Assembly: GCA_013288945.1 (NCBI GenBank)
Contig: JABDAZ010000008.1
Coordinates: forward strand, 1 to 64,000
Direction: 5' to 3'
Source: Bacteroidota bacterium
GTDB lineage: Bacteria; Bacteroidota; Bacteroidia; Chitinophagales; Chitinophagaceae
DNA: 64,000 nt
Position numbers and translations under genes: made by a program. This document shows positions 329-53,943 of the stretch, in pieces (within the stretch, counting starts at the first letter, position 1; each line of letters begins with the position of its first letter). The notes beneath the pieces are model-generated. The model was not told the origin of the DNA, did not search any database, and saw only the letters and a program-made list of their open reading frames with translations.

Positions 329-1912
329 ATGCAACAAACACTTCAATTAAAATTACATCCATCATCAATTGATGAAAACGCAATCCGGGCGCAGGTTGCA
401 CAGCTCATTAATAAAAGCGAAGAAGATATAACCGGCTACAATATCATTAAGCGATCAATCGATTCGCGGGGAAAACAAACCTGGATAATAATTACACTTA
501 CTGCATTTATTAATGAACCTTTTGTTGAAAGAACATTAACCCATTTTACTTTTAAAAATGTTGCCAACGCACAAAAAAAAGTTATTATTATTGGTGGCGG
601 GCCTGCAGGTTTATTTGCTGCATTAAAATTAATTGAAGAAGGAATAAAACCAATAATACTTGAACGCGGAAAAGATGTGCGCGCACGAAGGCGTGATTTG
701 GCAACGCTTAATAAAGAAGGAATTATTAATGCTGAAAGCAATTATTGTTTTGGTGAAGGTGGCGCGGGAACTTACAGCGATGGAAAATTATATACGCGAA
801 GTACAAAGCGCGGCGACATCAATCGCATATTAAATTTGTTTGTGCATTTTGGTGCAGAAGAAAATATTTTATTTGATGCGCATCCACACATTGGCACAAA
901 TAAATTACCACAAATAATTACTGCCATGCGCAAACTAATTTGTGATAGTGGTGGTGAATTTTTATTCGAAAAAAAAGTAGTTGATTTTACTATAAAAGAT
1001 GATATAATAAAAGGCGTAAAAACTGCTGATGAAAATATATTTGAAGCCGATGCAATCATTCTTGCAACCGGACATTCAGCTCGTGATATTTTTCATTTGT
1101 TGCACAACAAAAAAATATTAATAGAATCAAAACCATTTGCGCTTGGTGTGCGCATCGAACATCCGCAGCATATTATTGATTCGATACAATATCATATGCT
1201 TTCAAAAAATAGTATTAATGAACGGCCAGATTTTTTGCCGCCTGCATCGTATAGTTTGGTGGATCAAATAAATGGCAAAGGCGTTTTTTCTTTTTGCATG
1301 TGCCCCGGCGGAATTATTGCGCCAGCTTCAACCGATAATAATGAATTGGTGGTTAATGGATGGTCGCCTTCCAAAAGAAATAATCCATTTGCCAATTCAG
1401 GAATTGTAATTAGTGTTGATGAAAAAGATGTTCAATCTTATAATAAATATGGGCCGCTTGCCGGCTTACATTTTCAGCAATTTGTTGAACAAAAATCTTA
1501 CGAATATGGCGGCGGAAAATTTGTTGCGCCTGCGCAAAGAATGGTTGATTTTGTTGATAATAAAAAATCATCATCATTGCCGGTTTGTTCTTATTTACCA
1601 GGATTGAACTCCGTTTCTTTAAAAGAAATTTTACCGCAATTTATTAATGAAGGTCTGCGAAATGCATTCATCGCCTTTGGAAAAAAAATGAAAGGTTATT
1701 ATACAAATGATGCGGTGCTTGTTGCTACGGAATCGCGGACTTCATCGCCCGTGCGCATTCCAAGAAACAATGACAGTTTGCAACATCCGCAAATAAAAAA
1801 TTTATACCCGTGTGGCGAAGGCGCCGGCTACGCGGGTGGAATTGTAAGTGCAGCAATGGATGGAGAGCGCGTGGCGGCGAAGATTGCTGAGCAGTTGACA
1901 GATGACAGATGA
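329..1912 (+). CDS. FAD-dependent dehydrogenase of the COG2509 type
   Basis: This is a 527-residue flavoprotein, probably cytosolic; its substrate is not known for the family. An N-terminal domain of about 80 residues precedes the Rossmann FAD-binding motif GGGPAG at residues 89-94, followed by the family-typical ERG and a glycine-rich FGEGGAGTYSDGKL stretch. A C-terminal GEGAGYAGGI motif closes the FAD site. That order and the length fit COG2509 dehydrogenases. The start ATG at 329 fits the family N-terminus. Its stop codon (1910-1912) lies inside a tandem TGACAGA repeat, so the last residues (LTDDR) are encoded by the repeat and may not be ancestral. Confidence 0.85.
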   Translation: MQQTLQLKLHPSSIDENAIRAQVAQLINKSEEDITGYNIIKRSIDSRGKQTWIIITLTAFINEPFVERTLTHFTFKNVANAQKKVIIIGGGPAGLFAALKLIEEGIKPIILERGKDVRARRRDLATLNKEGIINAESNYCFGEGGAGTYSDGKLYTRSTKRGDINRILNLFVHFGAEENILFDAHPHIGTNKLPQIITAMRKLICDSGGEFLFEKKVVDFTIKDDIIKGVKTADENIFEADAIILATGHSARDIFHLLHNKKILIESKPFALGVRIEHPQHIIDSIQYHMLSKNSINERPDFLPPASYSLVDQINGKGVFSFCMCPGGIIAPASTDNNELVVNGWSPSKRNNPFANSGIVISVDEKDVQSYNKYGPLAGLHFQQFVEQKSYEYGGGKFVAPAQRMVDFVDNKKSSSLPVCSYLPGLNSVSLKEILPQFINEGLRNAFIAFGKKMKGYYTNDAVLVATESRTSSPVRIPRNNDSLQHPQIKNLYPCGEGAGYAGGIVSAAMDGERVAAKIAEQLTDDR

Positions 1913-2022
1913 CAGATGACGGTTTACAGTTTACAATCTGCTGTTGCGAGCTTACAATTCTAGAATTATTAATAAAATAAAAACTTTCTTTTTTCTGTCA
2001 TCCGCCAACTGGCAACCGTCAT
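1896..2022. repeat. Heptamer array, TGACAGA family, two inverted arms
   Basis: The left arm (1896-1937) reads as six 7-base units: TGACAGA three times, then TGACGGT, TTACAGT and TTACAAT. The right arm (1995-2022) carries the complementary words CTGTCAT, CCGCCAA, CTGGCAA and CCGTCAT. The arms could fold into a long imperfect hairpin between the FAD dehydrogenase and the ABC transporter. The array includes the stop codon of the upstream gene. Confidence 0.85.
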
Positions 2023-2060
2023 CTTTAAAGAATTATATTTGAAAAACAAATAACCTTAAC

Positions 2061-2993
2061 ATGAACTTGCTTGAAGTAAAAAACCTGCGCAAATATTTTG
2101 CTACGCAAAAAGCTGTTGATGATATCAGTTTTAATATTGAGAAAGGATCCATCTTCGGATTACTCGGCCCGAATGGCGCTGGCAAAACAACATTAATAAG
2201 AATGATAACCGGAATTTTTTATCCTGATGAAGGACAAATTATTTTGGATAGAAAAACTTTTGATCCCGTTAATGATGTTGGACAAATTGGCTACATGCCC
2301 GAAGAACGTGGCTTGTATAAGAAAATGAAAATTGGTGAACAAGCAGTTTATCTCGCACAGTTGAAAGGATTAAGTAAAGATGTTGCCACGCAAAAAGTAA
2401 AAGAATGGTTTGTAAAATTCGACATGCAAAGTTGGTGGAATAAAAAAATTGAAGACTTAAGTAAAGGCATGAGCCAGAAATTACAATTTGTAATTACAGT
2501 TTTGCACGAACCAAAATTAATAATATTGGATGAACCTTTCAGCGGGCTTGATCCTGTAAATGCCAATTTAATTAAAGATGAAATTTATGGATTGGCGCAA
2601 CGCGGAAGCACAATTATTTTTAGCACGCACAGAATGGAACAAGTGGAAGAAATTTGCGATCATATTGTTCTTGTAAATCTTGGAAAGAAAATTTTAGACG
2701 GAACGGTTCATAATATAAAACAGGAATTTAAAGAAAATAAATTCAGCATTCAATTAACTGAGTTGCCTGCAAACCTTGCCAGCAGTGCGTTTGACGTAGT
2801 TGATCAAAAAGCAAATAAATTGGTTGTAAAAATAAAAGATGGTTTTAAAAGCAATGATGTGTTGCAGCATTTTTTACAACAGCAGGTAAATATTGAAGGC
2901 TTTAATGAAATTCTTCCATCGCTCAATGATATTTTTATTATGGAAGTAGAAGGAACAAGGTCAAGAACACGAGCGTTTCAAACTGTTGCTTAA
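2061..2993 (+). CDS. ABC transporter ATP-binding protein, NatA-like
   Basis: This is the ATPase subunit of an ABC-2 exporter. Walker A is GPNGAGKTT (residues 36-44), the signature is LSKGMSQ (133-139), Walker B LIILDEP lies at 153-159, and the switch histidine is in STHRMEQ. The C-terminal 80 residues form the extension usual for NatA-type ATPases. The permease gene follows within 50 bases, so the two should be one operon and one complex. In Bacteroidota these pairs are often annotated as Na+ exporters, but the substrate cannot be read from the sequence. Confidence 0.9.
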   Translation: MNLLEVKNLRKYFATQKAVDDISFNIEKGSIFGLLGPNGAGKTTLIRMITGIFYPDEGQIILDRKTFDPVNDVGQIGYMPEERGLYKKMKIGEQAVYLAQLKGLSKDVATQKVKEWFVKFDMQSWWNKKIEDLSKGMSQKLQFVITVLHEPKLIILDEPFSGLDPVNANLIKDEIYGLAQRGSTIIFSTHRMEQVEEICDHIVLVNLGKKILDGTVHNIKQEFKENKFSIQLTELPANLASSAFDVVDQKANKLVVKIKDGFKSNDVLQHFLQQQVNIEGFNEILPSLNDIFIMEVEGTRSRTRAFQTVA

Positions 2994-3036
2994 AAAATAT
3001 TTTCTTTTAAAAAAATTTCTACCACAAATTTATTTT

Positions 3037-4365
3037 ATGAACAAAATCGGATTAATAATAAAGCGCGAATATTTAACGCGCGTGCGCAACAAAACATTTG
3101 TACTCACAACCATATTAATGCCGCTTTTAATTGTAGTATTAATAGCAGGCAGCGTTTATCTTTCAGTAAAAGGAAAAGAAGAATTAAAAATTGCAGTGGT
3201 TGATAATAATGGTTTCTTTAAAAACAATTTAAAAAACAGCGGCGATATTGATTTTAATTTTCCTGAAGGTGTTGATACTTCTAATTATTTGGATAAAGGT
3301 TATTCCGCTATTTTATTAATACCAAAATTTGAAGGCACAGAAAAAACGCAATACATTATTCGTTCTAAAAAAAGTATTGGGCTTGGAACGAAAGAATCTA
3401 TTGAAGGAAAAATTAATGATGCGATAGAAGATAATATGCTTCAACAAGCCGGCGTAAGAAGAAATGAGTTGGATTCTATTCATACAAAATCTCAGTTTGC
3501 AGAATTAAAATCATTATTGGAACACGGAAATAAAGCTGAAGAAAGCAACCAGGGATTGGCTTATGGAATTGGTTATGCAAGTGGTATTTTAATTTATATC
3601 ACTATGCTTATTTATGGAATGATGCTGCTGCGCGGCGTGATGGAAGAAAAAACAAACCGTATTGCAGAAGTAATTGTAAGTAGTGTAAAACCATTTGAAT
3701 TAATGATGGGAAAAATAATTGGTATTGGCGCAGTTGGCCTTACTCAATTTTTAATGTGGATAGTATTAATAATAATTTTAACCAGCGCAGCGCAAGCTTT
3801 TATTCCTCATGATATTTTGGAACAAGTGCGCACGATGCAACAAAATAATGGAGCAATGCCCGGCGGCGGAATGATGCAGGCAAGTGAATCAGCACAAAAA
3901 ATTTATAATTTTCAGCACACGATGAACACGGCAAACTGGCCATTAATAATTTGTTGTTTTATATTTTATTTTTTAGGCGGCTATTTATTTTATGCTGCAT
4001 TGTTTGCAGCAGTGGGAAGTGTTGTGGAAGATGTACAAAATTCTCAGAGTTTAAGTTTGCCTGTAACAATGCCGATAATTTTTTCGTTTTTAATAATGAG
4101 TATCGTGGTTTATAGCCCGGATACAAAGCTTGCAGTTTGGGCAAGTATTATTCCATTTAGTTCTCCCATTGTAATGATGGCGCGCATTGCATATGGCGTT
4201 CCGGGAACGGTTCCTTACTGGCAATTAATTGTAAGTATACTTTGTTTGATTGGAGGATTTTTATTTACCACATGGCTCGCAGGAAAAATTTATCGCACTG
4301 GTATATTAATGTATGGCAAAAAAGTTACTTGGAAAGAAATGATAAAGTGGGCGTTTCGTGGATAG
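3037..4365 (+). CDS. ABC-2 permease, NatB-like
   Basis: This is the membrane subunit paired with the ATPase just upstream. A first transmembrane segment follows the basic N-terminus (MNKIGLIIKREYLTRVRNK). A large extracytoplasmic domain comes next, then a C-terminal block of about five hydrophobic segments, the ABC-2 arrangement. The frame is open from a TTG at 2986, overlapping the end of the ATPase gene, but ATG 3037 gives the standard family N-terminus (MNKIxxIIKREY) and is preferred, giving 442 residues. An MPGGGMMQ-rich loop near residue 285 is low complexity. Confidence 0.88.
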   Translation: MNKIGLIIKREYLTRVRNKTFVLTTILMPLLIVVLIAGSVYLSVKGKEELKIAVVDNNGFFKNNLKNSGDIDFNFPEGVDTSNYLDKGYSAILLIPKFEGTEKTQYIIRSKKSIGLGTKESIEGKINDAIEDNMLQQAGVRRNELDSIHTKSQFAELKSLLEHGNKAEESNQGLAYGIGYASGILIYITMLIYGMMLLRGVMEEKTNRIAEVIVSSVKPFELMMGKIIGIGAVGLTQFLMWIVLIIILTSAAQAFIPHDILEQVRTMQQNNGAMPGGGMMQASESAQKIYNFQHTMNTANWPLIICCFIFYFLGGYLFYAALFAAVGSVVEDVQNSQSLSLPVTMPIIFSFLIMSIVVYSPDTKLAVWASIIPFSSPIVMMARIAYGVPGTVPYWQLIVSILCLIGGFLFTTWLAGKIYRTGILMYGKKVTWKEMIKWAFRG

Positions 4366-4371
4366 TTGCGT

Positions 4372-4563
4372 GAGATGCAGGTTTCGTGATGCGTGTTGCG
4401 TGATGCGGGATATGTGTTACGAGATACGTGATAAAAGTTTAGGATTGTAAAATCATGTATTATTAAAATAATGCATTGTAATGAATTTATTAATATCAAA
4501 TAACAAATCACGCATCCCTAAACTCGCATCTCGAATCCCGAAACTTGTATCCGAATCACAGTT
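4372..4563. repeat. Heptamer array, GTGATGC/GAGATAC family, two arms
   Basis: The left arm (4372-4434) is nine consecutive 7-mers, among them GAGATGC, GTGATGC, GTGTTGC, GGGATAT, GTGTTAC and GAGATAC. The right arm (4508-4563) is built of complementary words such as ATCACGC, ATCTCGA and ATCCCGA. It fills the gap between natB and the M28 peptidase. The same word family is used again at 25398-25549. Confidence 0.87.
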
Positions 4564-4593
4564 TCTATAATTTTCATTCCTCAATTTCCAATC

Positions 4594-5943: not shown

Positions 5944-5946
5944 AAA

Positions 5947-6039
5947 ACGATGGCCGAAGATCGTTGGCTGTTCATCGGATCTAACTTTGTTAATATAATT
6001 TTTTCGACTATCAACCATCGATCATCAGTCAACGATTCA
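5947..6039. repeat. Heptamer array around GATCGATGG-type words
   Basis: The right arm (6005-6039) splits into CGACTAT, CAACCAT, CGATCAT, CAGTCAA and CGATTCA. The left arm (5947-5981) has complementary words such as ACGATGG and TCGTTGG. It begins immediately after the M28 stop codon. Confidence 0.7.
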
Positions 6040-10228: not shown

Positions 10229-10498
10229 CGTTAGAAATAATTTAAGGGAAAGATTTTTTATAATTTATTAATGCAGAAAGTTACGCTGATTGTAAGTTTT
10301 GAAGATAATCTTTATTTGGATTTTTTGGATTAATGGATTGTTGGATTATTTTTTGTGAATTTGCGGCGAAGATTTTTAGCGAAGATGCGCAGATTAATAA
10401 AATGAAAATCCTGTAAATTATTAATCTCAAAATCTGAATAAAGAAATGATGTACAAGTGTGCGACGCCAATGAAGTTGAATAGTAATTCTGCTGCTTG
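10229..10498. repeat. Gap containing one REP-like core
   Basis: Between two minus-strand genes there is no open frame. A forward copy of the core GTACAAGTGTGCGACGC lies at 10451-10467, followed by the subfamily flank CAATGAAGTTGAATAG and a CTTGGTAAA end also seen (inverted) near 58800 and 50740. Confidence 0.8.
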
Positions 10499-10508
10499 GT
10501 AAATAAAA

Positions 10509-10540
10509 ATGCTATTAATCTTTTTAAAAATTAATAGCAT
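10509..10540 (-). terminator. Hairpin terminator for the minus-strand gene at 10575-10982
   Basis: ATGCTATTAA (10509-10518) pairs with TTAATAGCAT (10531-10540). Read on the minus strand the stem is followed by TTTTTATTT, the expected U-run. The stem is AT-rich, so efficiency is uncertain. Confidence 0.65.
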
Positions 10541-10574
10541 AAAATATTTTTATTAATTCTGTTTTACAAAACTT

Positions 10575-11955: not shown

Positions 11956-12074
11956 GTTATAAATTATGAGTGATGAGTTATGAGTTAATGCAAAAATATT
12001 TCATTTAAATTAGTTTGAGAATAACATGGTAAAGTGTCCCAACATTTATAACCCATAACTTATAACTCATAACT
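11956..12074. repeat. Heptamer array, GTTATGA/ATAACTC family, two arms
   Basis: The left arm (11956-11990) reads GTTATAA, ATTATGA, GTGATGA, GTTATGA, GTTAATG. The right arm (12047-12074) reads TATAACC, CATAACT, TATAACT, CATAACT. It sits between the nucleotidyltransferase and the nitronate monooxygenase and runs up to where the latter's start codon should be. Confidence 0.85.
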
Positions 12075-12078
12075 AATA

Positions 12079-13077
12079 TCAGCTTTCCCCCAAATCAATC
12101 TCTGTATTATCACCAATATTAAGGCTGCGGCTTTCGCCTTTTACTTCTGTGTCGCTGCCGATTAATGAATGTGTGAGCACAATATCATACAGGTTTGCAA
12201 ATGAACCAATAATGGAGTTTTTTACGATGGAATAATTGACAATTGTTTTTTCTCCAATCGCAACGTTTGGGCCGATGATGGAATTTTTTATATCGCATCC
12301 CGGCGCGATGCTTACGGGTTGAATGATGATTGTATTTTCAAATTGATGATCGGGAGAAATATTACTACCAAATTTTTTCAGCAGTTTTGAATTTGAATCC
12401 AGTAAAGTTTCTTTCTTGCCACAATCAAACCAGTTCTGCACTTTAAACGATTGAAACTTTGCGCCATTCTTAATCATGCATTCAATCGCGTCGGTTAAAT
12501 TATATTCGCCGTAACTCGTTAAATGATTTTTTATATTGTTTTCAACACAATTAAAAAGCCCGGACGTTTCGCGGATTAAATAAATGCCAACGAGCGCGAG
12601 GTTTGATTTTGGTATCTGCGGTTTTTCAACAACGCGCGTAATCGTTCCTGATTCATCAATTTCTGCAACGCCAAAATTGCGCGGATCATCAACACGTTTT
12701 ACACCTAAAACAGAACTCGGATTGGCAAGCACTTCTTTAATATCGTATTCGCAAATTGTGTCGCCAAGCACTATAAACAATTCATCGCTGCCCACAATAT
12801 CTTTCGTTAATAAAATGGCGTGGCCAATTCCCTGCCTTTCATTTTGATAAACAAAATGCGCGGTAAGTTGCGGATATTTTTCTTTCACATAATCCTGAAT
12901 TTTTTCGCCGAGATAACCAACAATAAAAATAAATTCATCAATGCCGCCTTCCATTAATTGGTCAACAATTATACTAAGAATGGTTTTACCTGCTAATGGA
13001 ATAAGCGCCTTTGGTTGTGTATATGTATGCGGACGTAACTTAGTGCCTGCGCCGGCAACCGGTATGATTGCTTTCAT
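12079..13077 (-). CDS. Sugar-phosphate nucleotidyltransferase (RmlA/GlmU-like)
   Basis: A cytosolic enzyme that should join a sugar 1-phosphate to a nucleotide (dTDP-, UDP- or GDP-sugar). The N-terminal nucleotide-binding motif is VAGAGTKLRPHT with the catalytic PKALIPLAGK; VLGDTI is the metal-binding region, and GVAEIDESG and EKP follow in family order. The C-terminal third (from about residue 245) has hexapeptide-like repeats (IIGPNVAIG, IVKNSIIGS), suggesting a left-handed beta-helix as in long-form glucose-1-phosphate thymidylyltransferases. The exact sugar is not readable. It is divergent from glyA. Confidence 0.85.
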   Translation of the reverse strand: MKAIIPVAGAGTKLRPHTYTQPKALIPLAGKTILSIIVDQLMEGGIDEFIFIVGYLGEKIQDYVKEKYPQLTAHFVYQNERQGIGHAILLTKDIVGSDELFIVLGDTICEYDIKEVLANPSSVLGVKRVDDPRNFGVAEIDESGTITRVVEKPQIPKSNLALVGIYLIRETSGLFNCVENNIKNHLTSYGEYNLTDAIECMIKNGAKFQSFKVQNWFDCGKKETLLDSNSKLLKKFGSNISPDHQFENTIIIQPVSIAPGCDIKNSIIGPNVAIGEKTIVNYSIVKNSIIGSFANLYDIVLTHSLIGSDTEVKGESRSLNIGDNTEIDLGES

Positions 13078-13092
13078 AATTTGTTTTTAGCA

Positions 13093-13152
13093 AATACGAA
13101 GTACGAAATAAGAATTATAAAATGATTTCGTATTTCTTAATCCGTATTTATT
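13093..13152. repeat. Heptamer array, AATACGA/ATTTCGT family
   Basis: Left arm AATACGA, AGTACGA, AATAAGA (13093-13113). Right arm ATTTCGT, ATTTCTT, AATCCGT, ATTTATT (13125-13152). It sits just upstream of the nucleotidyltransferase start and shares words with the array at 29872-30050. The rest of the gap to 13398 holds only AT-rich sequence. Confidence 0.75.
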
Positions 13153-14778: not shown

Positions 14779-15204
14779 ATGCTACAAAGAATACAAACGA
14801 TATGGTTATTGCTGGCGGCGGCTTGCGGGTTTTCGATGTATAAAGTTTCCATCTTTGAAGCGGCGCTGGCTAATAATGTTATTTATAAATTATCTGCAAC
14901 AGAAAGCCTTTTATTATTTGCAGTATTAATGAGCGTTGCATGCCTTTCATTAATTGCCATTTTTTTATTTAAGAATCGTCCGCTGCAAAGTAAAATTGTT
15001 CTTATTTCAATTTTACTTTCAATCGCTGCAATCGCATTGGAAGTTTGGCAAATAGAAAAATATAAATCATCAGCAACGATAACAAAAGGAACTTACGAAT
15101 TCGGCGGATTGCTTCCAATTGTAATGACCATCTTTTTAATTCTCGCCGCAAGAGGAATCAGGAAAGATGAAAAGTTGGTGAAGAGTTTGGACCGGCTGAG
15201 ATAA
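14779..15204 (+). CDS. DUF4293-type integral membrane protein
   Basis: A 141-residue inner-membrane protein with four hydrophobic segments (about residues 7-23, 44-63, 72-90 and 108-125) and the conserved start MLQRIQTIWLLLA, which is typical of DUF4293 proteins of Bacteroidota. The function is unknown. It follows glyA closely and could be in the same transcript. The C-terminus is basic and cytoplasmic by the positive-inside rule. Confidence 0.8.
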   Translation: MLQRIQTIWLLLAAACGFSMYKVSIFEAALANNVIYKLSATESLLLFAVLMSVACLSLIAIFLFKNRPLQSKIVLISILLSIAAIALEVWQIEKYKSSATITKGTYEFGGLLPIVMTIFLILAARGIRKDEKLVKSLDRLR

Positions 15205-15206
15205 GC

Positions 15207-15283
15207 ATAAAGTATAAAGTATTAGCTATAAAGTATTTTAAATAACTTATAGTTCATACTTCATAACTTATACTTCATACTTA
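15207..15283. repeat. Heptamer array, ATAAAGT/ATACTTC family, two arms
   Basis: Left arm ATAAAGT, ATAAAGT, ATTAGCT, ATAAAGT (15207-15234). Right arm ATAACTT, ATAGTTC, ATACTTC, ATAACTT, ATACTTC, ATACTTA (15242-15283). It lies between two convergent genes and contains the stop codon of uvrA paralogue 1 (minus strand). Confidence 0.87.
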
Positions 15284-25391: not shown

Positions 25392-25397
25392 GGAGCG

Positions 25398-25549
25398 GGA
25401 TACGAGATGCGAGGTGCGTGATGCGAGATATGTGATACGTGATGCTGGATAAATCTTGATGCTCATTAATGAATCGATAATTTGTAATCTTATAAAATAA
25501 AATCCCGAATCCAATATCGCGTATCTCGAAACCCGTAACCCGCATCTAA
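25398..25549. repeat. Heptamer array, GTGATGC/GAGATAC family, two arms
   Basis: The left arm (25398-25453) is eight perfect 7-mers: GGGATAC, GAGATGC, GAGGTGC, GTGATGC, GAGATAT, GTGATAC, GTGATGC, TGGATAA. The right arm (25501-25549) is seven: AATCCCG, AATCCAA, TATCGCG, TATCTCG, AAACCCG, TAACCCG, CATCTAA. It is the same family as at 4372-4563 and ends 10 bases before the M20 gene start. Confidence 0.9.
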
Positions 25550-27456: not shown

Positions 27457-27500
27457 GTACAAGAGTGCGACGCAACTGATGACGATTAATGTTGCGTATG
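27457..27500 (+). repeat. REP-like core upstream of the malic enzyme
   Basis: Forward core variant GTACAAGAGTGCGACGC at 27457-27473, followed by AACTGATGACGATTAATG. It ends about 25 bases before the malic enzyme ATG. Confidence 0.8.
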
Positions 27501-27521
27501 CCGGTTAACAAAAAAATATTT

Positions 27522-29867
27522 ATGGCAAAAAAAGAACTTCGAAGGGAACAGGCGCTCGAATATCATTCCAAGGGAAGGCCCGGAAAAATTGAAGTAGTGC
27601 CCACCAAAGAAGCAAAAACACAACGCGATTTATCGCTTGCTTATTCGCCGGGCGTGGCTGAACCTTGCAAAGAAATTTTTAAAAACACTGAAGACGTTTA
27701 TAAATACACCGCCAAAGGAAACTTGGTGGGCGTTATCAGCAATGGCACGGCTGTATTGGGTTTGGGCGATATTGGCCCGGAAGCTAGCAAGCCGGTGATG
27801 GAAGGAAAAGGTGTGCTCTTTAAAATTTTTGCAGACATAGATGTGTTCGATATTGAGATTAATGAAAAAGATCCGGAAAAATTTGTACAGATTGTAAAAG
27901 CGCTCGAACCAACTTTTGGCGGCATTAATTTAGAAGATATAAAAGCGCCGGAATGTTTTTATATAGAAACAAAATTGCGCGAAGCGCTGAAGATTCCGGT
28001 GATGCATGATGACCAGCACGGCACTGCAATTATCAGCAGCGCGGCAATGATTAATGCGCTTGAACTGCAGAAGAAAAAAATTGATAAAGTACGTTTTGTT
28101 ATTAATGGCGCAGGCGCTGCTGCAATGGCTTGCGCAAAATTATATGTGGCACTCGGCGCGAAGTATGAAAATTTTATTTTGTTTGATAAAGATGGTGTGC
28201 TGCATGAAGCGCGCACAGATTTAGGCGAAGACAAAAAACCATTTGCAATTAAAAAAAGTGACCTCACTTTAGCGCAGGCGATGAAAGATGCAGACGTGTT
28301 TGTTGGATTAAGTGTTGGCAATGTTGTTACTCCTGAAATGGTGAAGAGCATGGCGAAAAGGCCAATCGTTTTTGCAATGGCAAATCCTGATCCGGAGATT
28401 ACTTATGAAGCAGCGATTGGTGTTCGCGATGATATTATTATGGCAACCGGGAGAAGCGATTATCCGAACCAGGTTAATAATGTGTTAGGCTTTCCATTTA
28501 TATTTCGTGGTGCGTTGGATGTGCGTGCAACGCAGATTAATGAAGCGATGAAACTCGCTGCCGTAAAGGCTTTGGCAGATTTGGCAAAATCTGCTGTTCC
28601 TGATATTGTGAACATGGCTTATAATGAAAAGACGATTGCATTTGGCCCAACTTATATCATTCCAAAGCCGCTTGATCCAAGATTATTATCAACCGTTGCG
28701 CCAGCAGTTGCACGCGCTGCGATTGAAAGTGGCGTTGCACAAATTGCGATTGCAAATTGGGATGCGTATGCGATTGAATTAAATAAACGGCTTGGTTTGG
28801 ATAATCAGTTAATACGTGCTGTTGGAAGCAAAGCACGACGTGATCCAAGGAGAGTTGTTTTTGCGGAAGCTGATAACCAGAAAATTTTAAAAGTTGCGCA
28901 GATTGTATATGATGAAGGAATCGCTTACCCGATTTTATTAGGCAATGAAAAAAAGATAAAGAGTATTGCTGCTATTAATAATATTGACATCGAAGATTTT
29001 CCGATTATAGATACGAACAGTGAAGAGCAGGATGAAAAGCGGAAATTTTTTGCAGAACTTTTTTTTAAGAAAAGACAGCGGCGTGGTATTAATAAACATG
29101 AATCGCATAAATTAATGCACGACAGAAATCATTTTGGTTGCATGATGGTTGAAACCGGCGAAGCCGATGCAATGATTTCGGGGTTGACAAAAAATTATCC
29201 GGACACGATTCGCCCAGCAATACAAATTATCGGCACAGAAGAAGGCGTGAAAAAAATTGCAGGCATGTATTTGTTGCTTACAAAACGCGGCCCATTATTT
29301 CTTGCAGATACAACGGTAAATTTTAATCCGACAGCAGAAGAACTCGCAGACATTACATTAATGGTTGCAAAAGAAGTGCGCAATTTTAATCTCGTTCCAA
29401 AAATTGCAATGCTCAGTTATTCAAATTTCGGTACAAGCGATTCGCCCGAAGCAAGGTTGGTTGCGGAAGCACGGAAAATTGTAAAACAAAAAAACCCTTC
29501 ATTAATAGTTGATGGTGAAATGCAGGCCAGCCTTGCGTTTAGCAATGAAATTATAAGAGAAAATTATCCGTTTAGTGAATTGCTTGATCAACAAGTGAAC
29601 ACATTAATATTTCCCAATTTAGCCGCGGGAAATATTGCTTATAATTTATTAAAAGAAGTTGGCGGCGCAGATGCCATTGGCCCGATATTGTTGGGATTAA
29701 AAAAACCAGTACACGTTTTACAACTCGGAAGTTCTGTGCGCAGTATTTATAATATGGCATTGGTTGCAGTAATTGATGCACAAATAAAATGCAAGAACTC
29801 AAGCGATGATGCAGTTAAAAAATCATCGTGGTGGAAACGATTGAAAAAGCCACCGAAAGGCGTTTAA
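27522..29867 (+). CDS. maeB: NADP-dependent malic enzyme with phosphotransacetylase-like domain
   Basis: Oxidative decarboxylation of malate to pyruvate, supplying NADPH. The N-terminal malic-enzyme part (about residues 1-430) shows [25 protein letters not shown], the metal-binding DDQHGTAI and a Rossmann [14 protein letters not shown]. The C-terminal part (about 435-781) is phosphotransacetylase-like ([42 protein letters not shown]), which in MaeB proteins usually acts as a regulatory acetyl-CoA-binding domain. The frame is open from a TTG at 27489; ATG 27522 ([15 protein letters not shown]) is the family start, giving 781 residues. Confidence 0.95.
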
Positions 29868-30823: not shown

Positions 30824-30879
30824 GCTATTGGCTTTTAGCTAATGGCTAATAGCTAACGGCTAACGGCCAACAGCCAATC
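30824..30879 (+). repeat. Heptamer array of eight GCTAAYG units, inside an operon
   Basis: Eight uninterrupted 7-mers: GCTATTG, GCTTTTA, GCTAATG, GCTAATA, GCTAACG, GCTAACG, GCCAACA, GCCAATC. It fills the gap between mlaE and mlaF almost exactly and ends 11 bases before the mlaF ATG. No second inverted arm is visible, although the GGCTNNNNGCC-like units can pair locally. Confidence 0.9.
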
Positions 30880-31700: not shown

Positions 31701-31702
31701 CT

Positions 31703-32190
31703 TTATGTATGATGCCGATGTATGATGTCTGATTTTATTAAAACCTGATTTTTTAATTTTTACTTTTTGTTTTTTACTTCATCAGCATTTTCACATTTAC
31801 CACATTCATCACATTTTCACATTAATATTATTGTCCGAACATTCGGTTCATTAATGAACATTTGTGGCGTCGCACACTTGTACAATCGCGGCTATAATGA
31901 TCTTTTTTTCGCCACAGAGGTGCGCTGAGGAATAGAGTTTCTCAGAGGTTCTTTGCTTTTTCTTTATGATTTTTTGGCGATAAAAAGATCATTATTAATA
32001 CAACTGCACAAGTGTGCGACGTCACTGAAGCTTAATTATTAATCAACTGTCAGGTACAAAAAAAGTTGACTGATGACAAATGACTGTTGACAGATATATA
32101 TTTATAAAACCAACTTGGTTTTTTTTATTTTTTAATTTTTGTTTTTTACTTAATGGATCATTTTCACATTGCGCATTTTCTCATTTTCAC
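31703..32190. repeat. Composite intergenic element, copy 1
   Basis: Starting just after mlaF, this stretch matches the reverse complement of 55030-55530 along almost its whole length. In order: heptamer words (GATGTAT type), poly-T words, CATTTTCACATT words, TTGTCCGA end, reverse REP core (31867-31883), a nested palindrome (AATGATCTTTTT at 31894, inverse AAAAAGATCATT at 31983), forward core variant (32006-32022), heptamers GTTGACT, GATGACA, AATGACT, GTTGACA (32065-32092), and more CATTTTCACATT words. No open gene is present. Confidence 0.87.
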
Positions 32191-32208
32191 ATTCACCGCA
32201 TTTTCCCC

Positions 32209-32216
32209 TATTTTTG
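32209..32216 (+). promoter_or_regulatory. -7 box of sucD
   Basis: TATTTTTG matches TAnnTTTG, 30 bases before the sucD ATG and directly after the composite element. Confidence 0.55.
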
Positions 32217-32246
32217 TTTCCCAATTGAACGAATACAAATATTAAT

Positions 32247-33119: not shown

Positions 33120-33124
33120 TTTTG

Positions 33125-33166
33125 GTGAATGGTGAGTGGTGAAAAATATTGACCATTCACGATTAA
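33125..33166. repeat. Short heptamer array, GTGAATG family
   Basis: GTGAATG, GTGAGTG, GTGAAAA (33125-33145), then the inverse CATTCACG (33154-33161), immediately after sucD. It shares words with 14720 and 53883. Confidence 0.7.
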
Positions 33167-48032: not shown

Positions 48033-48195
48033 GAGTTATGAATTATGAGTTATGAATTTTTGTCGATGGTTTATGAGTCATTATTAATTGCAAAAATTAT
48101 TATTAATGATTAATAATAATCAACATTCAATATTCAATAATCAATTTTCAAGTATTAATAAAAACGAACTGTCAACTGTCAACTGCCAACTACTA
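48033..48195. repeat. Three heptamer blocks: GAGTTAT, ATATTCA and ACTGTCA families
   Basis: Block 1 (48033-48060): GAGTTAT, GAATTAT, GAGTTAT, GAATTTT, starting at the rarA stop. Block 2 (48123-48157): ACATTCA, ATATTCA, ATAATCA, ATTTTCA, AGTATTA. Block 3 (48168-48195): ACTGTCA, ACTGTCA, ACTGCCA, ACTACTA; its last base is the A of the GNAT start codon. Confidence 0.87.
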
Positions 48196-48638
48196 TGAAT
48201 TGGATATTAAAAAAATTTGAAGAGCTTACTCCGTTTGAATTGTATGCCATACTTCAATTGCGCAATGCAATTTTTGTTGTTGAACAAAATTGTGTTTATC
48301 AAGATCTCGATAATAAAGATTTGAAGAGTTATCATTTGATGGGTTATGAAAAAAATTTACTTGTTGCATATACACGCATATTGCCCGCGGGAATTTCCTA
48401 TGTAGAATCTTCTATTGGGCGTGTAGTAGTTTTACAGGCAGCAAGAAAAAATGGAACGGGAAAAAAATTAATGCAAAAAAGTATTGAAAATTTATTTTCA
48501 TTATTTGGAAAAATGCCAATAAAAATCGGCGCACAATTATACCTGCAAAAATTTTACGAATCACTTGGCTTTCAACAAACCAGCAATGTTTATTTAGAAG
48601 ATGGCATCGAACATATTGAAATGTTGCTTACTCCATAA
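48195..48638 (+). CDS. GNAT-family acetyltransferase, ElaA-like
   Basis: A 147-residue cytosolic N-acetyltransferase of the ElaA type: FEELTPFELYAILQLRNAIFVVEQNCVYQDLD and the acetyl-CoA-binding SIGRVVVLQAARKNGTGKKLMQ, then QLYLQKFYESLGFQ. The acceptor is unknown. No Shine-Dalgarno is present; the start codon touches a heptamer array. Confidence 0.87.
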   Translation: MNWILKKFEELTPFELYAILQLRNAIFVVEQNCVYQDLDNKDLKSYHLMGYEKNLLVAYTRILPAGISYVESSIGRVVVLQAARKNGTGKKLMQKSIENLFSLFGKMPIKIGAQLYLQKFYESLGFQQTSNVYLEDGIEHIEMLLTP

Positions 48639-48780
48639 CGCCACAAAAAAAATCTTTTATAGAAATTATTTTTAATTCTGCACACATAAAAAACTATTTC
48701 CTTCGTTTCTTGTAAGATACCAGCAATTTTTATATTTTGTTGCTGAATCCAATCCATCGGAAAACTAAAATCTAATATTC

Positions 48781-49758
48781 ATGAAACAGTGTTTACACTC
48801 CTTATTGCGGAAGTGTGTATTTATTGCAACGCTATTATTTGCATTAAACATTCCGTCTTTCAGTCAACTTTCTTCAGGCACTTATTTTGACGCAGGCATT
48901 ACAGTTGGCCCAATGGGTTTCCTTGGTGATCTTGGCGGCAATTACGGAAAAGGAACTGGCTTTGTTAAAGATTACAATTTAAAAACTACCAAACTTTCTT
49001 ACGGTATTTATGCAACTGCATATCCTGCAGAATGGCTGGGCATCAGGCTGGCATTGAATTTTGGCGGACTGAACGGAAGCGATGCAAATACAAATGTAAA
49101 AGGTGGTGAAGAAGAATCACGCAAAAACAGGAACCTCGATTTCCGATCAAACATACAGGAAGCTTTTATTGGTGGTGAATTATATCCAACTGTTTTTCTT
49201 GAAAATGATCCAACAGATATACAAGGAAGATTAAGGCCTTATGGTATTATTGGTATCGGTGTTTTTCATTTCAACCCACAAGGAAGTTATACTGATCCAA
49301 ACACGCACACAACAAGCTGGGTAAACCTGCGCGATTTGCATACAGAAGGCGAAGGTTTTCCTGAATACCCAGATAGAAAAGAATATGCATTAACGCAATT
49401 AAATATTCCGATGGGCATTGGTGTTAAATATTATTTCAGCAACAGTGTAAATATTTCTTTCGAAATCATTCACCGCAAAACATTTACTGATTATATAGAT
49501 GACGTGAGTACAAACTTTGTAGACCCGAGTTTATTTTATAAATATCTTCCGGCAGCCACTGCAAAAATTGCAGATGAGATGTCGAATAAAAGCCCGTTGC
49601 GCGGCCAGCCAGGCGCTTATAATGTAGGCGATAAAAGAGGCAATCCAAATCAAAACGATGCATACTTTACAGCAGGGTTTAAGTTAGGAATCCGTTTAGG
49701 TGCAGGCAGCGAACGCCAATGGAGAAACTCAACACGTTGCCCTGTTTTACGTTTCTAA
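48781..49758 (+). CDS. Outer-membrane beta-barrel protein (DUF6089/PorG-like)
   Basis: A 325-residue exported protein with a signal peptide (about 1-28, ending SFSQ) followed by alternating amphipathic strands (YFDAGITVGPMGFLGDLGG, LSYGIYATAYPAEWLGIRLALNFGG, RLRPYGIIGIGVFHF, NIPMGIGVKYYFS) and a terminal strand near GFKLGIRLGAG. The pattern is that of an eight-strand-type barrel common in Bacteroidota, some of which assist type IX secretion. A loop of charged residues (GGEEESRKNRN) lies near residue 110. The specific role is inferred only. Confidence 0.75.
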   Translation: MKQCLHSLLRKCVFIATLLFALNIPSFSQLSSGTYFDAGITVGPMGFLGDLGGNYGKGTGFVKDYNLKTTKLSYGIYATAYPAEWLGIRLALNFGGLNGSDANTNVKGGEEESRKNRNLDFRSNIQEAFIGGELYPTVFLENDPTDIQGRLRPYGIIGIGVFHFNPQGSYTDPNTHTTSWVNLRDLHTEGEGFPEYPDRKEYALTQLNIPMGIGVKYYFSNSVNISFEIIHRKTFTDYIDDVSTNFVDPSLFYKYLPAATAKIADEMSNKSPLRGQPGAYNVGDKRGNPNQNDAYFTAGFKLGIRLGAGSERQWRNSTRCPVLRF

Positions 49759-49802
49759 AAAAATTATCATACCCAAATTATTTTATACATCATTGTATAC
49801 AT

Positions 49803-50009
49803 ATGCATAAAACTGTACACGGAAAAAATTTATTGGTCAACTTCTTTTTAATAGCAGCAGCCATTTTATTAATACTGTTTGCTTCTTTCACAGCAACAAA
49901 AATTTCCGGTTCAGTTGTTAAGCTTTCAATGCATACAACATCTTATAAAATTAATACAGCAAAAAATATTTTAAACGCACAACCAATAAGCAGGCAGGGA
50001 AATTGGTAG
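49803..50009 (+). CDS. Small single-pass membrane peptide
   Basis: A 68-residue frame from ATG 49803 with one strong hydrophobic segment (about residues 10-30, LLVNFFLIAAAILLILFA), a polar tail and the end ISRQGNW. No family is recognised. It lies 44 bases after the barrel gene and before a terminator, so it is probably the last cistron of that transcript. An upstream in-frame extension into the barrel gene is rejected. Confidence 0.5.
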   Translation: MHKTVHGKNLLVNFFLIAAAILLILFASFTATKISGSVVKLSMHTTSYKINTAKNILNAQPISRQGNW

Positions 50010-50140
50010 AATCTGATATCCGAAAACAATGGTTAACAGTAACCTGATCCGTTCCCTATTTTAGTACCCTACAAAAGATTTTATTAACAGACCTGCTGCG
50101 CTTATTGGTACTTTATTGTTCTTACCCCTAAAACCCAACA

Positions 50141-50172
50141 GCCGGTAACTTTTGTTACCGGCCTTTTTTTTA
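50141..50172 (+). terminator. Strong intrinsic terminator
   Basis: GCCGGTAAC (50141-50149), loop TTTT, GTTACCGGC (50154-50162), then a T-run. It ends the barrel transcript before a convergent gene. Confidence 0.93.
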
Positions 50173-50194
50173 TTAATAAACTTAAAAAAGAGAG

Positions 50195-50725
50195 TTACTT
50201 CAAAAACACGTCTGCAGCATGTTTCCAGCTTTCCAGGCGATCATAATTTTTTTCATCCAAATTATGCGGCGCATTAAAAAGATAAGGCTTGCCTTTAAAA
50301 TGTTGCAAGTGCCTTGCATGATCATCAATCATATAATCGCCGTACATTAATCTCTTATCTCCGCAAAAAACCATTTGCTGCCAGGTAAAAAATGGAAAAT
50401 GTTCCATCAGCCAATGATATTTTTCTATTAATGAATTTGGAAATTCAACAGCAGCAGACACAATGAAAATTTCATATTTTTTATTCATCTCTTCCAGCAC
50501 TTCTTTGCTGTTTTCAATCACTGGCAGGTTGCGAAAAAATCCAGGTTCAAATAATTGTTGCCGCACAATTGTTTGATGTTCGTCAGGAAAACCTTTAACC
50601 AAAGAATGCCCTGCAAGCATTTTTTCATAGTCAATATCGCCGCCAAATTTTTCTTTATACCAATTAATCATTGCCAATGTAGTATCAGCAATCACTTCAT
50701 CCATATCAACTAAAATTCTTTCCAT
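50195..50725 (-). CDS. 5'(3')-deoxyribonucleotidase, HAD family (NT5C type)
   Basis: A 176-residue cytosolic phosphatase that should dephosphorylate pyrimidine deoxynucleotides. HAD motif 1 is VDMDEV (nucleophile D7, general acid D9), motif 2 lies in FIVSAAVEF, the lysine in FCGDKRLM and motif 3 in YMIDDHARH. The size matches bacterial 5'(3')-deoxyribonucleotidases. A REP-like core lies just upstream of its start. Confidence 0.88.
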   Translation of the reverse strand: MERILVDMDEVIADTTLAMINWYKEKFGGDIDYEKMLAGHSLVKGFPDEHQTIVRQQLFEPGFFRNLPVIENSKEVLEEMNKKYEIFIVSAAVEFPNSLIEKYHWLMEHFPFFTWQQMVFCGDKRLMYGDYMIDDHARHLQHFKGKPYLFNAPHNLDEKNYDRLESWKHAADVFLK

Positions 50726-50739
50726 ATCTAAAAAATATT

Positions 50740-50794
50740 TTTTTACTAAGCGATAGAATTATTATTAAACATTTGTTGCGTCGCACTCTTGTAC
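50740..50794 (-). repeat. REP-like unit upstream of the nucleotidase
   Basis: Reverse core variant GCGTCGCACTCTTGTAC at 50778-50794, with the subfamily flank ACTAAGCGATAGAATTATTA before it, as also seen near 58800. Confidence 0.8.
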
Positions 50795-50891
50795 ATTTTA
50801 ATCTTTACTCAACAATTTTGTGAATGGTCAATAGTTATTTTGCTTCTCCGGCATGAATGCCGGAGCTAGTCAGACAATTTTCTTATTAATA

Positions 50892-50933
50892 ATACTTCAT
50901 TCAAAATTTTACATTCATCATTTATTATTCAAT
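50892..50933. repeat. Heptamer array overlapping the uvrA paralogue 2 stop codon
   Basis: Six 7-mers: ATACTTC, ATTCAAA, ATTTTAC, ATTCATC, ATTTATT, ATTCAAT. The gene's stop (50918-50920 on the minus strand) and its last residues (LNNK) fall inside. Confidence 0.7.
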
Positions 50934-53791
50934 TCTTCTTTCAAAAATTTTGCGGTAAAGCTTTCTTTGTTTTTTACCAAATCTTCCGGCACGCCTTCAA
51001 ACAAAATTCTTCCGCCGCCATCACCACCTTCCGGCCCAATATCAATAATGTGATCTGCAACTTTTATAACATCCAAATTATGTTCGATTATTAATACTGT
51101 ATTTCCCCTGTCAACCAATTTATTTAATACATCAAGCAAGTGTTGTATGTCTTCAAAATGCAAACCAGTTGTTGGCTCATCTAAAATATAAAATGTTTTT
51201 CCGGTATCTCGTTTTGATAATTCTGTTCCGAGCTTCACGCGCTGCGCTTCGCCACCACTCAGCGTTACAGCCGATTGCCCTAACGTGATATAACCCAAAC
51301 CAACTTCCTGCAGCACTTTTATTTTGCGATATAAATAATGCACGTTCTGAAAAAATTCAACCGCTTCATCAACCGTCATATCCAACACATCGCTTATCGA
51401 TTTTCCTTTGTAACGTATTTCTAAAGTTTCACGGTTATATCTTTTGCCGTTGCATTTTTCACAATGCACATACACGTCTGGCAAAAAATTCATTTCAATT
51501 ACACGCATGCCGCCGCCTTCGCAAACTTCGCATCTTCCACTTTTTACATTAAAAGAAAATCGCCCCGCATTATACCCTCGGATTTTTGCTTCGGGAATTG
51601 AAGCAAACAAAGTTCTTATATCAGTAAAAAATCCACAGTATGTTGCAGGATTACTTCTTGGCGTTCTTCCAATCGGCGACTGATCTATTTCAATTACTTT
51701 ATCAATATTTTCCAAACCCTTGATGCTCTTATATTCCAGCGGATTTGTTTTTGAATCGAATGCATGCTTGCTTAATATCGGGTACAATGTTTCATTAATC
51801 AATGTCGATTTTCCACTGCCGCTAACTCCGGTAACAACAATAAATTTTCCCAGCGGAAATTTTGCATCTACATTTTTTAAATTGTTTCCCTTCGCTCCTT
51901 TCAATTCTAAAAATTTTCCATTTCCTTTTCTTCTTTCTTTTGGTATCTCAATTTTTTTATGAAGGTTTAAATAAGAAGAAGTAAGTGTATCCAATTTTAA
52001 TAATGCTTTCGGAACTCCCTGCGCAACAATTCTTCCGCCATGTGCGCCGGCTTTCGGGCCAATGTCAATCAAATAATCTGCAGCAAGCATAATGTCTTTA
52101 TCATGTTCAACAACTAAAACGCTGTTGCCAATATCACGCAGGTTTTTTAATGCATCAATCAGTCGTTGGTTATCTCTTTGATGCAAACCAATACTTGGTT
52201 CATCTAAAATATACGTGATGCCTTGAAGTTGCGATCCAATTTGTGTTGCTAAACGTATACGCTGAGACTCGCCACCACTCAGCGTTCTGGAAGATCGGTT
52301 TAATGTTAGATAGGTTAATCCAACATCTAATAAAAATTGTAAGCGTTCGCGGATTTCTTTCAATACATCTTTTGCAATCGTTGATTGTTTGGCGCTTAAC
52401 CGTTTTTCAATTCCATTGAACCAAACAATCAATTTATCCAAATTCATATTGCTTAGTTCGGAAATATTTTTTTCATCAACTTTAAACCAAAGGCTTTCTT
52501 TTTTTAAACGTGCGCCATTACACGTTTCGCAGGTTTTTAATTCCATAAATTTTTCAACCCAATCTCTTAATGCATCTGTTGTGCCACCTGCAAACCAACG
52601 CTTCAATTGATTTATTAATCCTTCATATTCTTCTGCATAAACATTGCCGGTTGTTGCAGTTGCTTCATAATCTATTTCATTATCGGTTGATCCATTTTCA
52701 TTTCCATATAAAACCAAATTCAATGCTTTTGCAGGCATTTCATTAACTGGTTTATCCAAACTGAATTTATTTTTTTTCGCTAACTGTTGCACTTGTTTAA
52801 ACACATACGCTTCACGTTCGCCACCCAAAGGCACAAGCGCACCTTCATTAATACTTTTTGTTTTATCTGGAATAACAGCATCCATGCTTATCTGGTAAAC
52901 AAATCCCAAACCTTTACAAGTTGGGCATGCACCGTAAGGTGAGTTGAAAGAAAAATTATTTGGATTTGGTTCTTCATAACTAATGCCTGTGTCTTCGCAC
53001 ATTAATTGCTTGCTATACTGAACCAATTTATTATCATCATTAACAAGTAAGAACATTAAGTCTTTACCAATCTGCAAAGATTTTTGTACGCTCTGGCTCA
53101 GCCTCACTTTCATATCATCAGTCACTGCAAGCCGATCAATTACCACTTCTATATCATGAATTTTATACCGATCAACCTGCATCTTCGCAACCAAATCTTT
53201 TACTTCGCCATCCACACGAACTTTTACATAACCTTTCTTTCTTGTTTCTTCAAACAGTTCGCGGTAATGTCCTTTTCTTCCGCGCACAAGTGGCGCGAGA
53301 ACAGAGATTTTTTTATTTTTAAATTTTTTAAAAACATTATCCACAATTTCTTCTTCACTAAACTTCACCATTTTTTTTCCGGTGTTGTATGAATAAGCGT
53401 CGCCAATTCTTGCATACAACAAACGCAAAAAATCATACACTTCAGTTACAGTTCCAACTGTACTCCGCGGGTTTTTATTGGTTGTTTTTTGTTCGATAGA
53501 AATCACCGGGCTTAATCCTGTAATCTTATCAACATCCGGCCTTTCCATATCACCAATAAATTGCCTTGCATATGCGCCAAAACTTTCCATATACCGGCGC
53601 TGGCCTTCTGCATAAATTGTATCAAATGCAAGCGACGATTTTCCGCTGCCACTAATTCCCGTAATAACAACCAGTTTATTTTTCGGAATTTTTATATCAA
53701 TATTTTTCAGGTTGTGCACGCGCGCGCCAAACACTTCAATTGATTCTTCTTCAATAATATTTTTTGTTGCTTCCTTCTCTGAAATCAGCAT
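50918..53791 (-). CDS. uvrA: Excinuclease ABC subunit A, paralogue 2 (canonical type)
   Basis: A 957-residue UvrA. Walker [10 protein letters not shown] (residues 45-53) and GVSGSGKST (second module), signatures LSGGES and LSGGEA, and Walker [10 protein letters not shown] and LDEPTTGLH are intact. The zinc modules are CPTCKG, CETCNG, CEVCEG and CEKCNG. The N-terminus is only 20 residues before the first ABC strand, close to the bacterial standard, so I take this as the main repair enzyme. The last residues are encoded by a heptamer array. A second uvrA lies at 15281-18094. Confidence 0.95.
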
Positions 53792-53867
53792 AATCGTAAC
53801 TCCTTATTAAATCGTGGTAAATGAAAACTAAGATAAGAACAAAAGCATTGCTCTTTGGTTTGAATTG

Positions 53868-53875
53868 CAAAGATA
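53868..53875 (-). promoter_or_regulatory. -7 box of uvrA paralogue 2
   Basis: CAAAGATA on the plus strand is TATCTTTG on the minus strand, about 75 bases before the uvrA ATG. The -33 region falls inside the heptamer array at 53883. Confidence 0.5.
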
Positions 53876-53882
53876 ATAAAAC

Positions 53883-53943
53883 GTGAATGGCCAATGGTGA
53901 ATGGCCAAATTTAAATTGACCATCCACCATTGACCATTCACCA
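53883..53943. repeat. Heptamer array, GTGAATG/TTGACCA family, two arms
   Basis: Left arm GTGAATG, GCCAATG, GTGAATG, GCCAAAT (53883-53910). Right arm TTGACCA, TCCACCA, TTGACCA, TTCACCA (53916-53943). The two arms form an imperfect palindrome of about 28 bases per side with a 5-base loop. Confidence 0.9.

Follow-up and report, generated by a model that had tools for sequence, protein, structure and literature searches.

Heptamer arrays between the genes

The stretch of DNA analysed here, called the window, comprises the first 64,000 nucleotides of contig JABDAZ010000008.1 from a Bacteroidota bacterium (assembly GCA_013288945.1; genome G000). The source genome, a Chitinophagaceae-like metagenome-assembled genome, has 3,031,694 bases in 116 contigs and is 73% complete; Flavihumibacter and Sediminibacterium of the Chitinophagaceae are among its closest named relatives, as judged from one protein. 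Between the genes of the window, including an ABC-2 transporter gene and a malic-enzyme gene, lie arrays of degenerate heptamers, part of them with a complementary second arm (Table 1). Genes were called by a purpose-made open reading frame (ORF) rule, and no annotation was used. A sequence-only reading of the window had proposed that these arrays form a genome-wide system in which the seven-base step is kept while the words change.

In the 36 window gaps (8,541 bp), self-similarity at lag 7 clearly exceeded that of 60 dinucleotide shuffles (z = 9.2). Lags 14 and 21 were raised as well (z = 8.4 and 5.4), and lags 5, 6, 8 and 9 gave z from −1.7 to 1.4. Lags 3, 4 and 15, which the sequence-only reading did not mention, were also high (z = 8.7, 5.0 and 3.6). 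The best lag-7 segment, compared with 300 shuffles per gap, reached p < 0.01 in 13 of the 36 gaps and p < 0.02 in 15, so the estimate of at least 14 filled gaps was about right, with a few of the significant gaps (8929, 31701) being A- or T-rich runs.

The excess extends beyond the window. Twenty stretches from nine other contigs of the source genome (400 kb; segments scoring at least 12) held 44 lag-7 segments versus 1.6 in shuffles and 38 lag-14 segments versus 1.0, together with 15 lag-8 segments versus 2.2 and 7 lag-13 segments versus 0.6. Coding DNA of the same genome held 12 lag-7 segments in 347 kb. Array thresholds were set by us and vary between analyses (segment score 9 to 12). We pooled five genomes, three from the genus of the source genome (G000, 464 kb; G043, 360 kb; G018, 140 kb) and two from a second genus (G097 and G051, 200 kb each; the record of G051 is named Sediminibacterium). 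All five well-sampled positive genomes showed the lag 7/14 excess.

The primary period in the pool was 7 in 155 arrays, 8 in 38 and 9 in 5; it was 4–6 in 2 arrays and 3 in 6, and the fewer arrays with periods of 10–24 had largely 14 and 21, multiples of 7. With each gap shuffled once, periods 7, 8 and 9 appeared 2, 2 and 5 times, and periods 4–6 six times. The period is thus not 7 at every locus, as had been claimed, and period-8 words also occur in the window (gaps 10229-10574 and 31701-32246). A 3+4 sub-repeat within the heptamer was rejected, being weak, present in three of the five genomes and of opposite sign in G018. Tandem 7-nt units exceed chance in intergenic DNA, as in long simple sequence repeats (LSSR) and in the cyanobacterial heptamer repeats named STRR. 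The arrays are genuine, and they represent a richer form of a kind already known, the intergenic heptamer repeat. The likeness to STRR, seven-base tandem words with several per genome, is one of description.

Placement at gene edges

Arrays occupied 87 of 453 co-directional, 25 of 121 convergent and 10 of 150 divergent gaps in the five genomes. They lie at gene edges and favour stops over starts. The depletion of divergent gaps, with no surplus in convergent ones, indicates that promoters are avoided and that there is no terminator-like excess. Past stop codons the lag-7 match is raised at 0–30 nt and once more from about 60 nt onwards; its profile upstream of starts is almost level. The starts of stop-proximal arrays cluster at −1 to +1 of the stop.

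Inverted arms

A long inverted repeat (ungapped, score at least 13) was present in 63 of the 140 array gaps of up to 700 nt in the five genomes. By our own reading of the window, an array-based inverted repeat of this score occurs in 8 of the 16 gaps with a lag-7 or lag-8 segment of at least 10, and in three more of these the strong palindrome belongs to another element. A second arm is therefore less general than the "most" of the sequence-only reading. The arrays at 48033..48191 form a weak ungapped hairpin (11.4) and a gapped one of 17.5. In the source genome, a hairpin score of at least 15 was found in 23 of 53 array gaps versus 2 of 53 for the best of five shuffles, and in 17 of 193 gaps lacking arrays versus 7 in shuffles.

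In 54 hairpins with both arms periodic, the arms matched at 0.83 in the best register, a value inflated by the choice of register, at 0.64–0.71 after slides of 7, 14 or 21, and at 0.22–0.28 at other offsets. The in-register pairing score was 20.3 versus 17.7 after unit shuffling of one arm (51 hairpins, 25% of which reached p ≤ 0.05 singly). Tolerance to sliding together with a modest in-register excess means that the two arms consist mainly of the same words, and that exact inverted copying is visible as a modest trace. This excess fits what inverted copying predicts. A compact example is a 68-nt convergent gap in G018 (L171), which carries perfect period-8 inverted arrays, (GAGTGTGA)3 ... 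(TCTCACAC)3, at both edges. Period-8 words resembling AATGTGAA recur in G000 and G043.

Words, local seeding and turnover

Loci on different stretches of the source genome had 12-mers in common in 57 of 840 pairs, versus 6.1 after column permutation. The other four genomes gave 34/589 versus 3.9, 18/94 versus 0.7, 21/106 versus 1.5 and 17/123 versus 2.5, so sharing exceeds permutation in all five. Shared 16-mers were clearly above unit-shuffled arrays in G043 (16 versus 5.5) and G097 (11 versus 4.9), less so in G000 (19 versus 11.8), and not clearly in G018 (6 versus 7.1) or G051 (7 versus 5.1). Each genome has several word families, and words are less often common to the two genera. The words thus form a genome dialect common to loci. 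The sequence-only reading saw a different heptamer at each locus; words do vary by locus, but the sharing of 12-mers makes that statement too strong.

Turnover was followed at the 3' end of secA (L053 carries Pfam SecA domains). The search covered 81 second-genus genomes, a subset of a larger group, and matched in 79; 30 loci were retrieved and, with one Cnuella locus added, gave 31 ends. An array starting −7 to +4 of the stop was present at 12 of these, with differing words. Pairs were compared at 82–88% identity over the last 1.2 kb of secA. Three keep a related word (L182/L183, L193/L195, L204/L212), L185/L196 has quite different words, and L184/L190 and L187/L188 have an array in one member only. 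At orthologous places the arrays accordingly do not align as conserved terminators; words differ or the array is missing. The idea that the seven-base step is kept genome-wide while words change is borne out by these ends and by the lag profiles. Likewise, the gap 3' of the malic-enzyme gene is 208 nt with arrays in the window, and 66 and 94 nt without an array in G043 and G047, in both of which the malic-enzyme protein is 89% identical to that of the window.

The unit at L204/L212, AATTGAT, consists of the last codon, the stop and a T, and the two arrays are 70 and 35 nt long, the one clean case of a length difference in whole 7-nt units between relatives. Extra stop trinucleotides at +7, +14 and +21 were found in 22–24% of genes with a stop-proximal array versus 8–10% without one (91 such genes among 768 in seven positive genomes); at +6, +13 and +20 the genes with such an array also had 16–18%. 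Both observations indicate that local sequence seeds a part of the arrays. L204 and L212 also share an identical patch of 30 nt upstream of the stop, the array and about 127 nt downstream, between flanks about 18–21% diverged, which resembles a short tract of recombination at the array. As a general account of arrays, such patches were rejected, because six of the seven other pairs show none; the seventh, L185/L196, was uninformative since the ungapped comparison lost register.

Presence and absence between sister species

In the genus of the source genome we sampled 33 genomes (4.5 to 464 kb each; an overlap between two loci was counted double in G001). Eight had at least two lag-7 arrays, two had one, and 23 had none in the sampled DNA; the array-negative genomes contributed 0.1–9 kb of gap DNA each, so that single negatives are weak. 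Several of the better-sampled sister or near-sister species differ: G043 had 35 arrays in 43.0 kb of gaps versus 0 in 9.1 kb of G047, G006 had 7 in 3.2 kb versus 0 in 4.9 kb of G008, G002 had 5 in 3.8 kb versus 0 in 4.6 kb of G007, and G016 had 2 in 2.0 kb versus 0 in 4.0 kb of G003. A malic-enzyme tree built for 27 of the 33 genomes (the six omitted include array-bearing G018 and G005; of the one-array genomes, G011 was labelled positive and G045 negative) requires 7 changes of array state, and well-supported branches force 6 of these. The average for shuffled labels is 6.4, and array state is therefore not clustered on the tree.

Candidate switches were sought among six gene families of DNA metabolism or of mobile elements. 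Reverse transcriptase (PF00078) had no match in array-bearing G015, and Ku none in array-bearing G043, each 99% complete; Y-family polymerase was found in 32 of the 33 genomes. These three were rejected, as was MutS, which has strong matches (E about 1e-80) in array-bearing G000, G043, G006, G005, G002 and G015. The MutS negative is not clean, because the only two genomes of the 33 lacking a strong match, G016 and G018, both bear arrays (77% and 74% complete). The transposase RAYT (Y1_Tnp) was not found in array-rich G006 and G018 (86% and 74% complete), and G000 and G043 have 2 and 5. SbcD (TIGR00619) passed the cut-off in two of the 33 genomes, G007 and G046, both without arrays in the samples, and in one of 12 genomes, G065, which has an array. 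Its scarcity may make the genus palindrome-tolerant; SbcD would be permissive at most and does not track array state. G+C content was discarded as a determinant because positives and negatives overlap.

To gauge generality, 80 named loci were fetched and 39 listed for arrays, 9 of which had at least one lag-7 array. Because records titled as strains are among them (Cnuella takakiae, Pollutibacter soli and Sphingobacterium puteale included), it is unlikely that metagenome assembly created the arrays. The pooled lag-7 excess was z 6.3 in the Chitinophagaceae-like group and weak in Cytophagales (z 2.3); it was absent in the pooled loci of the Pedobacter/Sphingobacterium (z −0.3) and Flavobacteriales (z 0.6) groups.

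Array loci and other elements of the window

Table 1. Positions of arrays and of the dispersed element in the window.
Position	Feature	Context
1892..1935	Heptamer array CAGTTGA/CAGATGA	Overlaps end of ORF 329-1912; weak second arm 1985-2024
4373..4435	5' arm, GTGATGC/GAGATAC words	3' of ABC-2 transporter gene 2986-4365
4486..4545	3' arm, words complementary to 4373..4435	
11957..11987	Arm GTTATGA/GTGATGA	
12048..12078	Complementary arm	Ends exactly at stop of − strand gene 12079-13077
13092..13149	AATACGA array and short complementary arm	Lag-7 run alone p = 0.113
15203..15282	Two complementary arms, AAGTATA / TACTTCA	Fill convergent gap 15205-15280
25396..25450	5' arm GATACGA/GATGCGA	Begins 4 nt past stop codon
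25501..25547	3' arm, partner of 25396..25450	Ends 11 nt ahead of next start codon
29861..30033	AATACGA / TTCGTAT arms	Gap behind malic-enzyme gene 27489-29867 (Pfam)
30824..30877	GCTAATG/GCTAACG array	In 71-nt gap
31701..32246 (gap)	T-rich period-7 runs and period-8 CATTTTCA words	Flank dispersed GCGTCGCAC element
33123..33142	TGGTGAA array	3 nt past stop codon
48033..48191	Three arrays: GAGTTAT, TCAATAT and AACTGTC words	Fill gap
53883..53943	GTGAATG/GGCCAAT arm and complementary TTGACCA arm	
55134..55158	GTCAACA/GTCATCT array	Divergent gap
55446..55515	AAGTAAA/AAATCAT array	Same divergent gap as 55134..55158
10453, 19266, 19499, 27459, 31867, 32008, 41507, 42822, 50778, 55203, 55344, 58826, 58868	GCGTCGCAC(A/T)CTTGT element	

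The window also holds a dispersed intergenic element with the core GCGTCGCAC(A/T)CTTGT, in 13 copies (one with a mismatch) versus 0 expected. The 464 kb of the source genome contain 35 copies, all 35 outside ORF calls and several in inverted pairs, and the element occurs in G043 stretches too. Period-7/8 arrays were found in 13 of 25 gaps with the element versus 4.2 ± 1.8 in length-matched gaps, four of the 13 being in stretch L013. A SAM riboswitch (RF00162, 76.5 bits) lies at 55649-55761 upstream of a gene for a Cys/Met metabolism PLP enzyme, and Rfam at gathering cut-offs gave nothing else in the window.

Origin of the arrays

We consider DNA-level copying, part of it inverted, with selection restricting the arrays to gene junctions, the best reading, at a probability of roughly 0.5. 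A DNA-level process would tandemly copy steps of 7 bases, less often 8 or 9, between genes. Its seeds would often be local, in part of the arrays with the gene's own stop codon in the copied unit, and arrays would grow and shrink by whole units. Words may spread or be homogenised between loci of one genome, and a strand switch within an array would yield the inverted second arm. Selection would confine the arrays to junctions, acting against frameshifts in genes and against arrays in the promoters of divergent gaps, and would not keep them for an RNA function. A heritable determinant would turn the process on or off between sister species. The earlier suggestion of a mechanism that copies a 7-base step stands as regards short-step copying and fails as regards a strict 7, given periods 8 and 9.

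Several observations weigh against this copying process. The two that it explains least well are the words common to unrelated loci, which independent local slippage alone does not explain, and a strand polarity that plain slippage does not predict. Among 240 arrays of periods 7 and 8, 72 were dropped for too little G/C skew, and 135 of the remaining 168 lie nearer the boundary 5' of their G-rich strand. This holds at stops (84/99), at starts (51/69) and in single-array gaps (36/45), with the commonest G018 word departing from the rule. In the 15 nt past stops, G/C skew is +0.35 in array gaps versus −0.03 in array-free gaps of the same genomes, and in 38 co-directional hairpins the 5' arm gives G in 294 G–C pairs and C in 86. 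Selection for a binding protein is another possible meaning of the shared words. The choice of 7 over 5 or 6 has no account in copying, and none of the six families searched (reverse transcriptase, RAYT, SbcD, Ku, Y-family polymerase, MutS) tracks array state. A related word and a similar place persist in some secA pairs 13–18% diverged, which indicates that turnover is not fast. As a separate observation, array-free gaps of positive and negative genomes alike have a C-rich skew upstream of starts (antisense G/C skew about 0.2 in the nearest 15 nt) that is absent after stops.

Selection on RNA hairpins, with the arms folding in the transcript and acting at mRNA 3' ends as terminators or stabilisers, as has been proposed for repetitive extragenic palindromes (REPs), would agree with the position of the arrays at 3' ends, their rarity in divergent gaps and the excess of strong hairpins over shuffles. 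However, selection for RNA pairing would favour G–U pairs, and in transcript sense these were no commoner than A–C mismatches (41 versus 47; 38 co-directional hairpins), so the arms carry no such signature. The 12 nt past the 3' arm contained 0.335 T (44 hairpins), with no U-run as in intrinsic terminators, and these two results remove an RNA terminator as the leading explanation. Loops reach 429 nt, convergent gaps have no excess, and orthologous places have no array or other words. True terminators with a hairpin and a T-run, by our own reading and not by a terminator program, stand behind the array at 8 of the 12 secA array loci (L182, L183, L184, L188, L191, L193, L194 and L195). We therefore consider selected RNA hairpins unlikely, and the hairpin geometry that the sequence-only reading offered as a cause fares no better, given also that arrays without a partner arm exist. 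Recognition of the dialect words by a genome-specific nucleoid, transcription or translation factor, with selection keeping copies near gene ends, would account for words common to unrelated loci of a genome and less often to both genera. Given that each genome has several families of words, that orthologous places differ in their words and that there are sister species whose sampled DNA has no arrays, such binding sites are a distinctly unlikely origin.

The G-rich polarity, also in single-array gaps, the same words in both arms and the words common to loci would suit a telomerase-like process, in which templated or self-templated extension of DNA 3' ends at breaks, followed by joining, leaves W(n)...rcW(m) with the G-rich strand inward. 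Yet genomes have several words, the commonest G018 word is not G-rich on the inward strand, units copy a local stop codon, and array-bearing genomes that are 99% complete have no reverse transcriptase match (G015) or no Ku (G043), which makes this origin very unlikely. A further reading, which we regard as quite improbable, is a dedicated DNA-writing activity that can be switched on or off and that sister species of Chitinophagaceae would have gained and lost. It would extend DNA ends or gene junctions with 7–9-nt words of the genome's own dialect and leave arrays like fused telomeres, W(n)...rcW(m), between genes. Finally, since 7 is 1 mod 3, three stop-bearing units block all frames, and arrays could be favoured behind genes as stop-codon cassettes. 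Stop-proximal arrays do contain 351 stops versus 299 ± 17 after column permutation (five genomes pooled), and arrays are found at secA ends. But no single genome is clear (P 0.05–0.30), arrays far from a stop also have a sense excess (237 versus 207 ± 16), stops in all three frames occur in 49 of 94 arrays versus 40 ± 4 expected, and many arrays adjoin start codons. The effect is small and due at least in part to units copying the real stop, and we rejected these cassettes as most improbable.

Comparison with published heptamer repeats

Heptamer repeats between genes have precedents in print. The sequence-only reading knew of no described Bacteroidota version, but TAACTGA direct repeats have been reported in Beggiatoaceae, Cyanobacteria and five Bacteroidetes (MacGregor 2015; PMC4679880). 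Some of these gaps also hold further heptamer repeats, and most indels between two close Cyanothece strains come in steps of 7 nt. The TAACTGA repeats resemble the present arrays in being intergenic heptamers in Bacteroidetes with other heptamer words alongside. Unlike them, TAACTGA is one fixed word, mostly just upstream of starts in BOGUAY, and an inverted case is described for one of 170 sets (PMC4679880), whereas inverted repeats are frequent here. The lists of the 14 commonest words in each of the five genomes do not contain TAACTGA.

The closest layout is that of the G-quadruplex-forming heptamers GGGAATC / GGGGA(C/T)T of Xanthomonas and Nostoc (Rehm et al. 2015; PMC4692102). These are intergenic, depleted between divergent ORFs and overlap stop codons; they are G-rich on the sense strand within 50 bp of the stop, or on the antisense strand upstream of ORFs. 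Inverted pairs number 70 (Xcc) and 75 (Xac), and length and sequence vary between relatives. The present arrays likewise lie near ORF ends, are few in divergent gaps and have the G-rich strand nearest its 5' ORF. In contrast to one G-quadruplex word type with four units preferred, they have many words per genome, periods 8 and 9, and presence and absence between sister species. The same paper mentions three Calothrix heptanucleotides. Long simple sequence repeats, with heptanucleotides most abundant, occur in many genomes, and slippage linked to a 7-nt polymerase contact has been proposed for them (Mrazek et al. 2007, as summarised in PMC4679880 and PMC4692102). Both they and the present arrays show a surplus of 7-nt units; inverted arms and dialects do not figure in those summaries. 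Satellites derived from heptamers, such as (GATAGRA)n in Chloroflexus, are known as well (PMC6749651). REPs are sequence families of 20–40 bp tagged by GTAG/CGTC (PMC3733652). Like them, the arrays are dispersed palindromes, mostly of co-directional and convergent gaps, downstream of coding regions; unlike them, they have no fixed sequence, varying in words and length, and no constant tag was seen by reading.

Xanthomonas and Nostoc thus provide a published precedent for the layout of the arrays, and Beggiatoaceae and Bacteroidetes one for heptamers as such. Searches of openly licensed papers turned up no account of genome dialects, nor of presence and absence between sister species. Because the words here are mostly without G-runs (judged from words alone; GAGTTAT, AAGTATG and AATTGAT are common ones), the array layout does not seem to need G-quadruplexes. 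The same layout with such words suggests that quadruplex formation is not what places repeats of this kind at gene ends. For the excess of unit length 7 in bacterial repeats, the literature examined offers only a hypothesised cause. The sister or near-sister pairs with and without arrays in the sampled DNA (G043/G047, G006/G008, G016/G003 and G002/G007) open the determinant to gene-content comparison.

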